A stretch of DNA of 64,000 bases from Gammaproteobacteria bacterium (lineage in GTDB: Bacteria > Pseudomonadota > Gammaproteobacteria > Steroidobacterales > GCA-2729495), in the NCBI GenBank assembly GCA_016874095.1, contig VGVH01000005.1, positions 62,001 through 126,000 of the forward strand, read 5' to 3'. Positions 10,676 through 22,325 of the stretch are shown piece after piece; positions within the stretch are counted from its first letter, which is position 1, and each line of letters begins with the position of its first letter. The notes under the pieces were generated by a model that was not told the DNA's origin, made no database searches, and saw nothing but the letters and a program-made list of their open reading frames with translations. The position numbers were made by a program, and so were the translations under genes.

Positions 10676-10999
10676 ATGAAAGACCACAGAGTGTTGACTC
10701 CGCGCGAAGAGCTCGCGGCGGAAGACCGGTTGTTCCGGGCGGTGCTCTGCATGCGCTCCGTCGATGAGTGCCGGGCCTTCTTTCACGACCTCTGCACACC
10801 GGCGGAATTGCAGGCGCTCAAGGATCGCTGGGCCGTTGCCGAGCTTCTTGCTGAAGGCAGGCTCAGCTACAGACAGATCCACGACGAGACCGGTGTCAGC
10901 GTTACCACGATTGGTCGTGTGGCGAGATTCCTGACGGCCGGCGAAGGTGGTTACACCAGAGTCCTGCAGAGATTCCGCGATCGTGAGAAAAGGTCATGA
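10676..10999 (+). CDS. TrpR-like (YerC/YecD family) transcriptional regulator heading the his operon
   Basis: This 107-residue protein resembles the Trp repressor superfamily (YerC/YecD group). RSVDECRAFFHDLCTPAELQALKDRW is the family core, and LSYRQIHDETGVSVTTIGRVARFL is the helix-turn-helix. Its last four bases overlap hisG, so it is the first gene of the his operon. TrpR-like genes in this position are known in Xanthomonas and Xylella, and YerC proteins lie near his genes elsewhere. A perfect palindrome resembling the trp operator lies directly upstream. I infer an autoregulatory repressor of histidine synthesis; the ligand is unknown. The ATG lacks an obvious ribosome-binding site, and GTG 10691 is an alternative start. 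Confidence 0.82.
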   Translation: MKDHRVLTPREELAAEDRLFRAVLCMRSVDECRAFFHDLCTPAELQALKDRWAVAELLAEGRLSYRQIHDETGVSVTTIGRVARFLTAGEGGYTRVLQRFRDREKRS

Positions 11000-17423: not shown

Positions 17424-17725
17424 GCACGACCGGACTGCAATACCTTCTGGACCTCGAGAGCGTTCTCGAGCAACGCAAGGGCGCCAGCACCGAGCAGAGC
17501 TACACCGCGAAGCTCTATCGCGCCGGGCCCTCGCGCATCGCGCAGAAAGTCGGCGAGGAGGCCGTTGAACTGGCGCTCGCGTCCATTGCCGGCGATCGCG
17601 GGCGCATCCTGGCCGAGTCGGCCGACCTGATGTACCACCTGCTCGTGCTGCTGCGCTCGCACGACATTCGCCTGGCCGAAGTCGCGCAGGAGCTGTCGCA
17701 GCGCCAGCGTGAAGTCCCGGTCTAG
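17420..17725 (+). CDS. hisE: Phosphoribosyl-ATP pyrophosphatase
   Basis: HisE hydrolyses phosphoribosyl-ATP to phosphoribosyl-AMP, the second step. The 101-residue all-helical protein has the MazG-like signature [12 protein letters not shown] and [11 protein letters not shown]. It overlaps hisF by four bases. In many gammaproteobacteria HisE is fused behind the cyclohydrolase HisI; here only the HisE domain exists and no hisI is in the window. The stop codon lies in a CTAG that also contains the stop of the opposite lysC-lysA gene. Confidence 0.95.
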
Positions 17726-20352
17726 ATCGCGAACTCGGCGGCCGGCTCCCGCAGGTTGTAACGCGAGCTCATCACGAAGCCGTAGGCGCCGGCGTTGCCG
17801 ATAGCCAGCACGTCGCCTGGCTGACAGACCGGCAGCAGCCGGTCGGTTCCCAGCTTGTCCCCGGACTCGCAGTTCGGACCGACGATGTTCACGACCTCGG
17901 TTGCCGGCTCGCCCCAGCGCGACAGGTTCGCGATCTCATGGTATGCGCCGTACAGAGCCGGCCGGATCAGCGAGTTCATGCCGGTGCTGACACCGACATA
18001 CTGGATGTCGCCTTTGCCTTTGAGCTGGGTGACCGACGTCACCAATACGCCGGCTTCGGCGATGACGTAGCGACCCGGCTCCAGCCACAGCTCGTAAGCG
18101 GGAAAAGCGGCGCGGATTTCATCGAGGCCCGCGCTCAGCGCCTCGAGATCCAGTGCCCTGCCGCCGCGCTTCTCCGGGACACCGAGTCCACCGCCCAGGT
18201 CAAGGTAACGGAGCTGCGGGAACCCGCCGGCGATCTCGCCCAGGATCGCCGCGACGCTGCGCCAGTTGTCAGGCTGCAGGATACCGCTGCCCGTGTGCGC
18301 ATGCAGTCCGACGATGCGTACACCGTGCTGCTCCGCCAGCGCGCACGCCTCGGCCAGTTCGAACAGGGGTATGCCGAATTTCGAGTGGGCACCGGCTGTG
18401 CGCACGTGCTCGTGATGACCATGGCCGTGCCCGGTATCGATACGCAGGAAGATTTCGCGCCCCGTAAACAGGCTGCCCCACTCCCGCAGGACGAAGACGT
18501 TGTCCAGCGTGAGCCAGACGCCCTTGTCCAGTCCATGCTCATAGTCGGCCCGCGGGGCGAAGTTGGGTGTGTAGAGGATCTGGCGCGGATCGAGATCGGG
18601 GAACAAACCGAGTACGCGGTCGATTTCTCCCGGTGAGACGCATTCGAAGCCAAGCCCGGCCTCGTGCACTGCGCGCAGTACCTCAGGGTTGCTGTTCGCT
18701 TTCATTGCATACAGGGCACGGCTGACGCCGCGTATGGCCCTTACCCTGGCGGCTGCCGCACGCACCGAAGCGAGGTCGTACACGTAGGCCGAGCCGTGTG
18801 TGGTTGCCAGTCCGATGAGTTCGTTCCGCCGCCGCGCCCACCACGGCTCCGCCAGGGGCGCTGCCTTGGGCAGCGTCTGCCGCAATTCTTCCCATGTCGG
18901 CCCGAACAGACTGTCCCGGCTGCCCGGCTGGATGAGCAGTTCATGCATGGCCTGGATCGTGCGGCGCGACTGGCCCTCCCCCACCACGAGGCTCAGATTG
19001 AGATCGCTTGCAGCCTGGCTCACCAGATGCACCGGCAACTCATCGAAGAGGTCGAATACCGGCCCGATTTCGTGCAGCACGGAACGTATCCGTTGGCCTA
19101 CGAGGCTCACGACTTCGACGTTTTCGATGATCTCGACCCGGCACAGTGGCGCCAGCGCGCGGCGCAACGCTTCGAGCACGACGGCATCGATCGCATTAGC
19201 GCCTGGATCAAGGGTCACAGTGACGTTGGTCTCGGAGGTCGAGACGAGGTCGATCGAGAGCCCCGCATCGCTGAAGCAGCGAAACGCGTCCGCCAGGAAT
19301 CCCACCTGCTGCCACATGCCTGGCGTCTCCATCGACACCAGCGTGACGCCCGTTCGCCCCGATATCGCCTTGACACGTGGCGCGTCGCCGCCGCCATCGC
19401 GTGTCACCAGTGTTCCCGCGAGCGTCGGCTGCGTCGTATCCTTGATCCGCAGGGGAATGCCGTGACGGCGCACCGGCGCTATGCAGCGGGGATGCAGTAC
19501 CGAGCCGCCGGTCGAGGCGATCTCCTGGGCTTCTGCGTAACTCAACGTCCGCAGCAGACGGGCACCCTGGACCGAGCGTGGATTCGCCGAGAACATGCCC
19601 GGCACGTCCGTCCAGATTTCGAGACCGCGGGCCTGCAGCTTCCCCGCGAAATAGGCGCCAGAGGTGTCCGAGCCTCCGCGGCCAAGTATCACTGTATCCC
19701 GGGCGGCGTTGCTGGCAATGAAACCCTGCGTCAGCACGACGCCCTGTAGTCGGCGGCAACGGTCCTGCAGGGCGGGGTCCGCGTCGAACTCACAACTGGC
19801 GTTGATGTAGCGCATGCGCTCGCTGGTGTTCGGCAGATCTATGCTGGTGAGGATCTCTCGCGCGTCCAGCAGCGTGGTCGTGACCCCCTGGTCGCGCAGC
19901 CATGCTGCGCCCATGGCGGTCGCCATGAGTTCCCCCATGGCCATGCCGCGAGCGTGGGCTCGGGGGGTGACTTCGCCCAGCAGCTGGATACCCGCAAGCA
20001 ACTGCTCCAGTTCACCCAGACGTGGACCGACGAGTGCTGGCCCATCGATGGCAAGTGCCGCGGCAAGGCTCATGTGCGCCTCGACGACCGCCTCGTACGG
20101 TCGGCGGTAATTGCCGCCCGGCGCCGCGATGATCGCCTCCAGTATGCGGTTCGACACGCCGGCGAGCGCGGAATGGACAACGAATGGCCGGTAACCGGCT
20201 GCGATGCGCTCGCTGATCAAGTCGCGTATCACGGCCCAGTTGCGGGCGCTCGATACGCTCGTTCCGCCGAACTTCATGACCAGCCATGGCGCCGATTCGA
20301 CCGTGCCGCGTCGACTCTGATTCGGAAAACTGTCTGGGTCGAGTGTCTGCAT
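17722..20352 (-). CDS. lysAC: Bifunctional aspartate kinase / diaminopimelate decarboxylase
   Basis: This 876-residue fusion joins the first and last enzymes of lysine synthesis. The N-terminal aspartokinase begins at about residue 25 with VMKFGGTSVSSARNW and includes GRGGSDTSGAYFAGKLQA. ACT-type regulatory repeats follow (about 320-480: ISGRTGVTLVSMETPGMW, VSLVGQRIR). The C-terminal PLP decarboxylase carries its lysine at Lys551 in LYAMKANSNPEVL, with LHAHTGSGI, LDLGGGLG and CESGDKLG further on. The same fusion is known from Xanthomonas and Xylella. The single polypeptide should bring ACT-based feedback and both activities under one promoter. It is downstream of ilvD and behind an attenuator-like structure. 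Confidence 0.95.
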   Translation of the reverse strand: MQTLDPDSFPNQSRRGTVESAPWLVMKFGGTSVSSARNWAVIRDLISERIAAGYRPFVVHSALAGVSNRILEAIIAAPGGNYRRPYEAVVEAHMSLAAALAIDGPALVGPRLGELEQLLAGIQLLGEVTPRAHARGMAMGELMATAMGAAWLRDQGVTTTLLDAREILTSIDLPNTSERMRYINASCEFDADPALQDRCRRLQGVVLTQGFIASNAARDTVILGRGGSDTSGAYFAGKLQARGLEIWTDVPGMFSANPRSVQGARLLRTLSYAEAQEIASTGGSVLHPRCIAPVRRHGIPLRIKDTTQPTLAGTLVTRDGGGDAPRVKAISGRTGVTLVSMETPGMWQQVGFLADAFRCFSDAGLSIDLVSTSETNVTVTLDPGANAIDAVVLEALRRALAPLCRVEIIENVEVVSLVGQRIRSVLHEIGPVFDLFDELPVHLVSQAASDLNLSLVVGEGQSRRTIQAMHELLIQPGSRDSLFGPTWEELRQTLPKAAPLAEPWWARRRNELIGLATTHGSAYVYDLASVRAAAARVRAIRGVSRALYAMKANSNPEVLRAVHEAGLGFECVSPGEIDRVLGLFPDLDPRQILYTPNFAPRADYEHGLDKGVWLTLDNVFVLREWGSLFTGREIFLRIDTGHGHGHHEHVRTAGAHSKFGIPLFELAEACALAEQHGVRIVGLHAHTGSGILQPDNWRSVAAILGEIAGGFPQLRYLDLGGGLGVPEKRGGRALDLEALSAGLDEIRAAFPAYELWLEPGRYVIAEAGVLVTSVTQLKGKGDIQYVGVSTGMNSLIRPALYGAYHEIANLSRWGEPATEVVNIVGPNCESGDKLGTDRLLPVCQPGDVLAIGNAGAYGFVMSSRYNLREPAAEFAI

Positions 20353-20408: not shown

Positions 20409-20440
20409 AAAAAGCCCGCGCCGGTCGTGCCGTTGCGGGC
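20409..20440 (-). terminator. Intrinsic terminator between ilvD and lysC-lysA
   Basis: On the minus strand GCCCGC (20440-20435) pairs with GCGGGC (20419-20414), followed by five T residues. It is 56 bases before the lysC-lysA ATG and about 150 bases after the ilvD stop. Its ascending arm is perfectly complementary over 11 bases to an upstream segment (20501-20491), which suggests an attenuator and not just an operon end. Confidence 0.75.
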
Positions 20441-20501
20441 CTTGGTGCTGGTGACTGTTGTCGCCCGGGGCCGCTGCCTGGTCAGACGCTCCCGCAACGG
20501 C
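20435..20501 (-). promoter_or_regulatory. Antiterminator pairing upstream of lysC-lysA
   Basis: GCCGTTGCGGG (20501-20491, minus strand) is an exact reverse complement of CCCGCAACGGC, which begins at 20439 and forms the ascending arm of the terminator. The resulting 11-bp antiterminator excludes the terminator stem. The first arm lies inside a short open frame with two lysine codons about 20 bases upstream. Regulation by lysine (or threonine) supply is inferred. Confidence 0.55.
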
Positions 20502-20559
20502 GAGCATCGGCCCCGCTGGACTTTCGCTTGAGCGCAGATTGGCTGGTGACCACGTTCAT
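20482..20559 (-). CDS. Candidate leader peptide of the lysC-lysA attenuator
   Basis: A 25-codon frame runs from ATG 20559 to TGA 20484-20482. It contains SALKRKSS, with lysine codons at 20529-20527 and 20523-20521. A ribosome paused there would leave the antiterminator arm (20501-20491) free, while one reaching the stop would cover it, so the geometry suits ribosome-mediated attenuation. Against this, no clear ribosome-binding site precedes the ATG and two lysine codons is few. An overlapping frame from TTG 20497 is threonine-rich (TTVTSTKARNGTTGAG) but has no stop before the terminator. Confidence 0.35.
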   Translation of the reverse strand: MNVVTSQSALKRKSSGADARRCGSV

Positions 20560-20593
20560 GGGGCCGGCAGTTAAGCGGAAGGCTCTGCCGGGG

Positions 20594-22285
20594 TCAAGTG
20601 CCGGTCGTGACGGCACCCTCGGATGCCGAACTGACCAGGCGGGCGTATTTCGTCAGCACGCCGCTCAGGGTGTCTTTCGCCGGAGGCTGCCAGGCGCGGC
20701 GGCGGTTACTCATCGCTTCCTCGCTCACGTCGATATCGATCGTTCGCGCCTGTGCATCGATCGTGATCGTGTCGCCTTCCTCGACCAGCGCCAGCGGGCC
20801 GCCCACCGCCGCTTCGGGCGTCACGTGACCCACGACGAAGCCATGGCTGCCGCCGGAGAAGCGCCCATCGGTGATGAGCGCCACTTTGTCGCCGAGCCCT
20901 CGGCCCATGATCGCCGAAGTGGGACTCAGCATTTCGCGCATGCCCGGCCCGCCCTTCGGCCCTTCGTAGCGGATGACCACGACGTCGCCTGCCGTGACCT
21001 TGCCCGCAAGAATCGCGGCCTGGGCATCCTCTTCCGACCCGAAGACGCGGGCGGAGCCACGGAAGCGAAGCCCCTCCTTGCCCGTGATCTTGGCGACGGC
21101 GCCTTCCGGCGCCAGGTTGCCATAAAGCACGATTAGGTGACTGTCCTTCTTGAGCGGCTGGTCGATGCTGCGCACGATGTCCTGCTTGGCCGGATACGGT
21201 TCGACTGCAGCCAGGTTGTCGGCCAGTGTCCGACCGGTAACCGTGAGGCAGGCACCGTGCAACAGGCCTGCATGAAGCAGCGTCTTCATCAGTGGCTGGA
21301 TGCCGCCGATGGCAATCAGCTCCGACATCGCATAGCGGCCGCTCGGCCGCAGGTCGGCCAGCACGGGCACGCGCGCGCCAATGCGGGTGAAGTCGTCGAG
21401 CGTCAGCGCCACGCGCGCCTCCCGCGCGGCTGCCAGCAGATGCAACACTGCGTTGGTCGAGCCACCCAGCGCAATGACCACGGTGATCGCGTTCTCGAAG
21501 GCCTCGCGACTCAGTATGTCCGATGGCCGGATCCCGCTGCGAACGAGATCGACGACCGCAGCGCCGGCGCGCCTGCAGTCCTCGATCTTGCTGGCCGATA
21601 TGGCGTCCTGTGCGGAACTGTTCGGCAACGACAGCCCCAGCGCCTCGATTGCCGACGCCATGGTATTTGCCGTGTACATCCCGCCGCAGGAGCCCGGCCC
21701 GGGAATGGCAGTCCGCTCGACCTCGAGCAGGCCGGCTTCGCTGAGCTTGCCGGCCGCAACGGCACCGACGGCCTCGAACACCGACACGATATCCCGTCGC
21801 TCCTTGCCCGGCTGGATAGTCCCGCCGTAGACGAACACCGAGGGGCGATTCAGCCGTGCCATGGCCATGACACAGGCGGGCATATTCTTGTCGCAACCGC
21901 CGATGGCGACGAATCCGTCGAAGCCCTCGCCGGCGACGACCGTCTCTATGGAGTCTGCGATCACCTCGCGGGACACGAGCGAATAGCGCATGCCCGGCGT
22001 ACCCATCGATATCCCGTCGGACACCGTGATCGTATTGAACAGGACCGCCTTGCCACCGGCCGCATCCGCACCGGCGGCAGCTTCGCGGGCGAGTCGGTCG
22101 ATGTGCATGTTGCAGGGTGTAACCATGCTCCAGGTCGACGCGATGCCGATCTGGCTCTTGGTGAAATCGGCTTCGGTGAACCCGACGGCGCGCAGCATGG
22201 CCCGGCTTGGCGCCTGGCTGACGCCATCCACCACGACCGACGAATGGGCGCGGGGGTCGGCGGGTCTGCGGCGATCACTGCTCAT
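20594..22285 (-). CDS. ilvD: Dihydroxy-acid dehydratase
   Basis: IlvD dehydrates dihydroxy acids to 2-oxoisovalerate and 2-oxo-3-methylvalerate, precursors of Val, Leu and Ile. The 563-residue protein has iron-sulfur ligands at Cys58 (TPCNMH), Cys131 ([10 protein letters not shown]) and Cys200 ([14 protein letters not shown]). [15 protein letters not shown] near the C-terminus is a family signature. ATG 22285 is preferred because the family alignment starts at about SSVVVDG; an in-frame ATG at 22321 is possible. It supplies the LeuA substrate, linking it to the leu operon elsewhere in the window. It follows the FAD-dehydrogenase gene on the same strand by 40 bases. Confidence 0.96.
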
Positions 22286-22325
22286 CGAACGGCCCCGAAA
22301 AAAGAGGCGCAAGTCTAACATCCGG

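Follow-up and report, generated by a model that had tools for sequence, protein, structure and literature searches.

The E. coli thr, his, trp and leu attenuators place a short frame of control codons, an alternative antiterminator and a terminator before the first gene of the operon, and the element presented here is built likewise. It differs from them in that it is predicted to sense lysine and to control lysC-lysA, and that it appears leaderless, as well as in having just two control codons and a weaker contrast between the stalled and the terminating state. For lysine itself, Tsubouchi et al. reportedly described in 2005 the leader of the Thermus thermophilus lysine cluster, with leader-peptide attenuation by lysine; this mode of attenuation is where the likeness to the window lies, the phylum and the pathway (alpha-aminoadipate) being others. 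Lysine genes of Gammaproteobacteria are usually associated with the lysine riboswitch. Among the genes controlled by this riboswitch (L-box, RF00168) are lysA operons of Pseudoalteromonas and, in a Clostridium, lysC-lysA (PMC5584792). It acts on lysine genes too, but RF00168 finds no match in the window. Concerning small frames, SEP5 of Sinorhizobium meliloti lies ahead of an aspartate dehydrogenase gene, contains six Thr codons and three for Lys, and has been suggested to play a regulatory role (PMC10117765). Like the window leader, SEP5 places Thr and Lys codons in a frame of a proteobacterial 5'-UTR, but it precedes another gene, and the passages of that report considered here describe no antiterminator for it (PMC10117765). 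The same report presents the S. meliloti trpL attenuator as leaderless, with a frame starting at the first AUG (PMC10117765), a trait that the window leader appears to share, whereas trpL senses Trp. Searches of an open-licence library yielded no proteobacterial attenuator with Lys codons ahead of lysC or lysA. As a leader-peptide attenuator the element would belong to a known kind, and the newest part of the material would be a structured RNA from a sister family, f7, described below.

The window, i.e. the whole analysed stretch of 64,000 nucleotides, very probably holds a ribosome-mediated lysine attenuator before lysC-lysA. All its parts lie on the minus strand, where ilvD (20594-22321) is followed, after a gap of 241 bases, by the fused lysC-lysA gene (17722-20352). 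The latter, the regulated gene, translates into 876 aa that we take to be a fused aspartate kinase - diaminopimelate decarboxylase, with relatives found by protein search. The upstream neighbour, presumably ilvD as judged from its translated protein, stands outside the switch. The lysC-lysA promoter shows a -35 box TTGACC (20592-20597), overlapping the ilvD stop codon TGA (20596-20594), and 17 bp from it a -10 box TTAACT (20569-20574), which is 9 nt ahead of the leader start codon. Because of this short distance the leader mRNA is probably leaderless, or nearly so, with a predicted transcription start. The leader peptide frame (20482-20559), recognised from the sequence and from the Lys enrichment in relatives, reads MNVVTSQSALKRKSSGADARRCGSV and ends in TGA; it spans 25 codons from the ATG at 20559-20557 to the stop at 20484-20482. 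Its control codons AAG CGA AAG (Lys-Arg-Lys, 20521-20529) include the two Lys codons, at +30 (20529-20527) and +36 (20523-20521) of the frame.

Downstream of the control codons follows a protector strand CGGGGCCG (20508-20515), which in minimum-energy folds pairs with CGGCCCCG (20466-20473). Region 2, GCCGTTGCGGG (20491-20501), is the antiterminator 5' strand, delimited by its complement and by the truncated fold; it lies 19 nt downstream of the second AAG and 6 nt upstream of the stop codon. Region 3, CCCGCAACGGC (20429-20439), is both the terminator rising arm and the antiterminator 3' strand. The folded intrinsic terminator (20409-20441) has the shape GGCCCGC...GCGGGC with an inner CGG/CCG stem and a T5 ending at 20409. 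The overall fold of the window leader region is not unusually stable (z -0.73 and -1.35), and a simple promoter and terminator scan of the window reported neither the leader terminator nor the leader promoter, presumably because its rules want a loop of 3-8 bases and an A at -10 position 2.

In the switch that we infer, lysyl-tRNA would be the sensed signal and transcription attenuation the output. RNA polymerase would start at the promoter at the end of ilvD, approximately at the leader ATG, so that a ribosome could load at once. With plentiful lysine this ribosome would reach the UGA and cover region 2, the terminator would fold, and transcription would end before lysC-lysA. With charged tRNA-Lys in short supply it would stall on the second AAG and hide the protector 5' strand, and region 2, being released, would pair with region 3 as antiterminator and let the polymerase enter lysC-lysA.

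For a comparison of the locus, searches with the lysC-lysA protein covered 60 relatives, 40 genomes from the family, 396 from the order and, in addition, contigs of named genomes (80 loci among the matches listed). A terminator of the form GCCCGC/ACCCGC...GCGGG at most 260 bases from the protein match was sought in 182 upstream stretches; L023, as well as L052, L070, L071, L075 and L094 (contig beginning at or inside the gene), had been excluded before counting. All families belong to one gammaproteobacterial order, f1 being that of the window. A terminator of this shape occurs in 66 of the 182 stretches, with 34/35 in f7, 16/36 in f1, 7/14 in f6, 1/2 in f4 and 1/1 in f15, a distribution to be read with the non-random choice of genomes, f7 and f6 having been picked after the element was first sighted. 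Named genomes, which in part overlap the unnamed ones, contribute 7 of 75 (among the matches listed), and the element is absent from f11 (0/12), f2 (0/4) and single genomes of f5, f12 and f13. In those element-less f1 genomes that were read, ilvD leads nearly straight into lysC. The promoter, TTGAC followed after about 17 bp by a TNTACT/TTAACT-like box, precedes the leader in f1 and f7 relatives; of the 16 f1 rows, 13 have 7-9 nt between -10 box and start codon, and the majority of f7 rows have 6 nt.

Removal of duplicates (L007, L053, L055, L058, L062, L066 and L113) left 59 distinct elements for the leader statistics. Upstream of lysC-lysA, 55 of them carry a short frame, which mostly begins close to the conserved promoter and hence is apparently leaderless; the other four (L169, L182, L185 and L189) have no start codon in place. 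Frames of the 15 f1 leaders were called automatically, and the ATG following the promoter region was assigned manually as start codon in L043, L048, L053, L064, L066, L137, L138, L140, L142, L144-L146, L184 and L190.

Lys codons are under selection in these leaders. At least one is found in 53 of the 55 leaders and at least two in 46. Counted over frames 0/1/2, Lys (AAA/AAG) amounts to 33/10/3 in the 15 f1 leaders (z 7.0 versus shuffles) and to 46/13/7 in 18 non-f7 clusters, some with hand-set starts (z 9.0); these z-scores are inflated by sequence relatedness, and the contrast between frames is the stronger argument. Among the eight codon sets tested in f1 leaders Lys is the most enriched, Met follows more weakly (14/1/3, z 3.9), and Asn, Gln, Glu, Arg and Ile (z -0.2 for the last) show no enrichment. 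Thirteen of the 15 f1 leaders contain Lys codons, at positions from +12 to +54. These positions vary among relatives and are always in frame, which argues for codons and against an RNA motif. The comparison of relatives that the first-pass annotation had proposed as a check therefore supports its reading of an amino acid attenuator.

The Lys-less f1 leaders are two distinct ones, of G001 and G008 (G009 being identical to the latter). G008 and G009, counted as different species, have identical leader regions (L006 and L007), which lack Lys codons as well as the ATG in its usual position and may represent an attenuator that has decayed. Some f1 leaders, e.g. L010, L018, L029 and L044, show an internal Met near the Lys codons (KRM, MKR), for which Met co-sensing or re-initiation are possible roles.

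Concerning the alternative pairing, region 2 (20501-20491) is perfectly complementary to 20439-20429 over 11 bases, with a match score of 31.0 against a mean of 17.6 in dinucleotide shuffles (p 0.007). This bears out the first-pass annotation in its claim of an 11-base complement to the rising arm, as does the position of that segment within a 25-codon frame with two Lys codons (20559-20482, minus strand). Every detail of that observation that was checked proved correct. With a ribosome on the second AAG and the falling arm not yet made, the minimum-energy fold of the window is exactly the 11-bp antiterminator. Once the ribosome has reached the stop, region 2 is covered, the 11-bp helix is impossible and the terminator forms. 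A ribosome on the first AAG, or the full-length RNA without ribosome, gives the 8-bp protector (20515-20508 with 20473-20466). In the fold it is the second AAG, and not the first, that frees region 2. Truncated window RNA without any ribosome likewise folds as antiterminator. Quantitatively, the rising arm of the window is paired upstream at 0.92 with the ribosome stalled on the second AAG versus 0.59, with other partners, at the stop; the modelled contrast is weak, and 13% of shuffles match the value of 0.92. Part of any such contrast arises just from less free upstream RNA at the stop.

When full-length leaders are folded at equilibrium, the terminator dominates in the majority of them whether or not a ribosome is stalled, with values below 0.9 in 5 of the 19 clusters; the decision must therefore be a kinetic one, made during transcription. 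The same calculation on the E. coli controls thrL, trpL, hisL and leuL gives a terminator of 0.96-1.0 at equilibrium. Since stalled and unstalled states cannot be told apart by full-length equilibrium folding, either in the majority of leaders or in these controls, the truncated fold was used. By this co-transcriptional test thrL, trpL and leuL reach 0.42-0.71 stalled versus 0.00-0.01 at the stop, apart from 0.06 at one late Leu codon of leuL, a contrast of the same sign as in the window; hisL is not discriminated (0.69 vs 0.68). All 19 clusters with Lys show more upstream pairing of the rising arm when the ribosome is at the best Lys codon than when it is at the stop, and in 10 of these at least one Lys position has a value that at most 5% of 60 shuffles reach.

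Taken singly, the pairing of regions 2 and 3 reaches p<0.05 in no more than 9 of the 55 leaders and 6 of the 21 clusters; over the 21 clusters the combined p is 1.7e-5. In the Lys-bearing f1 leaders, the last Lys codon is 19-28 nt from region 2 in 8 of 13, and region 2 ends at most 16 nt ahead of the stop, or runs into it, in 13 of 13. In the five others (L018, L025, L031, L045 and L047) the last Lys is just 5-10 nt ahead of region 2; a ribosome stalled there would cover region 2, and an earlier Lys, which all five possess, would have to act. The f1 consensus fold, from 10 leaders, has a covariation term of about zero and shows little beyond the terminator. Covariation in relatives, on which the first-pass annotation had made its proposal depend, is small for the region 2:3 pairing within the family of the window.

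At the window leader no Rfam family scores over threshold, the best being Trp_leader with 19.6 bits against a cut-off of 41; the leaders L031 and L044 also have sub-threshold Trp_leader, Phe_leader or Leu_leader matches. The RF00168 model matches 0 of 60 genomes and 4 of 14 control genomes (filters lose some weak matches). A lysine riboswitch at the window, which the first-pass annotation had not recognised either, was accordingly rejected, the aptamer core as modelled by Rfam being unmatched in the window and in the 60 genomes.

Family f7 harbors a covarying structured RNA at this locus. An alignment of its 34 elements needs few gaps within the frame, and the fold comprises a 10-bp P1, whose 3' strand is region 2, then P2 (GUGCC:GGCGC), P3 as a hairpin of variable sequence or size, an A-rich strand and the terminator, with the core CCCACGUA-nn-GUGCC-hairpin-A-rich-UAAAACnAAU-GGCGCGCCAGAGGUGCGUGGG. 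It covaries strongly, with 55 cells changed on both sides of a pair in the 34 sequences versus 12.9 in shuffles. With 58 sequences there are 102 double-changed cells versus 20.5, in an alignment that was fitted to the model and so is biased towards structure; slid controls were far lower. All 34 share the strand GGCGCGCCAGAGG without any change, even at third codon positions, and in the 58 it is almost invariant. The f7 antiterminator can form in 97.5% of cells and hardly varies, thus it gains no support from covariation. Lys codons over frames are 79/35/57 (z 4.7), a weaker in-frame excess that may reflect the A-rich strand.

When 392 genomes of the order were searched with a covariance model of this RNA (R1), 84 f7 genomes yielded a strong copy (E <=1.8e-21), one per genome, and G041 (f6), G311 and G327 gave weak matches. 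A separate draw of 61 f7 genomes contained 44 with a strong copy and 16 without any match. Among 274 genomes drawn from the class the only good match is in an f7 genome, G042; five others are short and score 24-31 bits, and the three that were aligned cover little beyond the terminator and its flank. A weak match inside a coding frame (L233, of G325) was left out of the element counts.

Translation of the f7 frame is supported in genus g15, where the start position is ATG, GTG or TTG in 34 of 40 copies and the stop position is nearly constant. The start codon is missing at that position in six g15 copies and in L220, yet apart from L185, with its one-base shift, these still have an open frame. 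In L159 the start is found further upstream. Ten of the 58 f7 copies combine the absence of a start codon with an in-frame stop ahead of the invariant strand. Eight belong to g54 and one each to g45 and g68 (L214-L218, L221, L224-L227; the leader region is at about 200-390 of those loci, read in gene direction). They keep 95 of 98 P1 pairs, 50 of 50 in P2, 50 of 53 in P3 and 80 of 80 in the terminator, and in two of the ten a C-G pair of P2 is exchanged for U-A. The next frame, by eye, is lysA-like alone in g54 and lysC-like in G120. As the core is retained without the frame, the f7 RNA itself is under selection independently of the peptide. A compact lysine riboswitch, or an A-rich strand that reads tRNA-Lys, would explain this conservation, and the frame-less RNA is, as far as such comparisons go, a candidate new riboswitch class.

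Leaders of f6 and f4, e.g. MNRTGLKQTTSKPIMRKRIVSGSLVPMR and MATTTRGMTTTMMATGKRAVSGLAVPMV, in most cases have a region 2 CAGCGGG(TT) opposite the terminator (AA)CCCGCTG. Over frames, the eight leaders of the set (L137, L138, L140, L142 and L144-L146 of f6, L048 of f4) show K 21/2/3, M 24/2/1, T 23/4/9 and I 17/3/3, with z of 7.7, 7.2, 3.8 and 2.6, respectively; these leaders are few and related, hence the z-scores are inflated and the enrichment is only a lead. Glu, Gln, Asn and Arg are not enriched in them. Lys, Met, Thr and Ile are the four amino acids made from aspartate. A Lys at +48 is common to all eight, just 7-8 nt ahead of region 2, and presents a difficulty, since a ribosome stalled on it would cover region 2.

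Taken over the families, one locus may have adopted two RNA logics: a Lys leader-peptide attenuator in f1, f4, f6 and f15, and in f7 a new and compact RNA acting as a lysine-responsive riboswitch or as a sensor of tRNA-Lys, in which a frame with Lys codons mostly overlaps the RNA and was discarded in 10 of 58 aligned copies, the f6/f4 peptide sensing all four aspartate-derived amino acids. We put this forward tentatively, as a possible rather than a probable scheme.

The lysine attenuator proposed for the window has to be weighed against simpler readings. The hairpin could be just the transcription terminator of ilvD, with an accidental frame and complement; its place directly after ilvD and the 20 of 36 f1 upstream stretches that lack the element would fit. 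However, a conserved promoter sits between ilvD and the terminator, the Lys codons are frame-specific, the f1 genomes that were read and have no element show ilvD leading nearly straight into lysC, and in L043, L048 and L066 the leader stays with lysC although the upstream frame, by eye, is not an ilvD tail. This fallback of the first-pass annotation was rejected on these three loci, and we regard it as very improbable. Hardly less improbable is that the window element (type A) is itself a ligand-binding RNA with an incidental frame. Such a role gains some credit from f7, where the core is conserved without frame in the ten copies mentioned, but the f7 model gives no match above 10 bits in the window and only weak ones, of at most 21.7 bits, in other f1 loci, and neither a consensus fold with little besides the terminator nor Lys codons kept in frame at varying positions is what it would lead one to expect.

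Which amino acid is sensed had been left between Lys and Thr, the latter on account of an overlapping Thr-rich frame in the window reminiscent of the thr leader. That frame exists, with 7 Thr codons, but it continues through the terminator and is not conserved. In the f1 leaders Thr is not enriched (23/18/18 over frames, z 0.7), and in 13 of the 15 the Thr-rich stretch holds at most 4 Thr codons in any frame, so that of the two amino acids only Lys stood. Despite the Thr-rich leaders of f6 and f4, a threonine (or Thr plus Ile) attenuator like thrL was rejected for the window, also in view of the Ile value given above, and is exceedingly unlikely. A broader reading, which would extend the Lys attenuator rather than replace it, has the leader sense several aspartate-family amino acids, Lys and Met in f1 and Lys, Met, Thr and Ile in f6/f4. 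It fits the shared aspartate kinase step, the in-frame Met excess in f1 and the selective enrichment in f6 and f4; the window leader, however, has no internal Met, a single Thr and no Ile, the f6/f4 scores carry the inflation noted, and an internal ATG could serve re-initiation. We consider this extension rather unlikely, without dismissing it, and retain the lysine attenuator for the window.

All 60 genomes tested lack the lysine riboswitch, and several families seem to rely on a Lys leader peptide in its place, apparently with leaderless mRNA. For genes of the same pathway, the order would thereby offer a natural series of peptide attenuator, structured RNA with a frame and structured RNA without one, which makes replacement between riboswitches and peptide attenuators directly testable.

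A final point concerns other sites in the genome of the window. A His-operon leader was sought in the window as an internal attenuation control, and none was seen by eye before the his operon. A small frame at 10676-10999 on the plus strand, presumably TrpR/YerC-like, directly abuts hisG (10996). A pattern search of the genome for leaderless leaders of this shape gave 4 sites versus 1 with a reversed control pattern; the pattern is narrow, hence the result is no proof of absence elsewhere in the genome. The four are the lysC-lysA leader, a leaderless-looking mRNA (L191), one chance-like site and L193. In L191, near position 1501 (G000:C3:94306), a gene that we take to be DUF177/YceD-like starts just behind a TTGACA / TTAAACT promoter-like sequence, and its mRNA is apparently leaderless.
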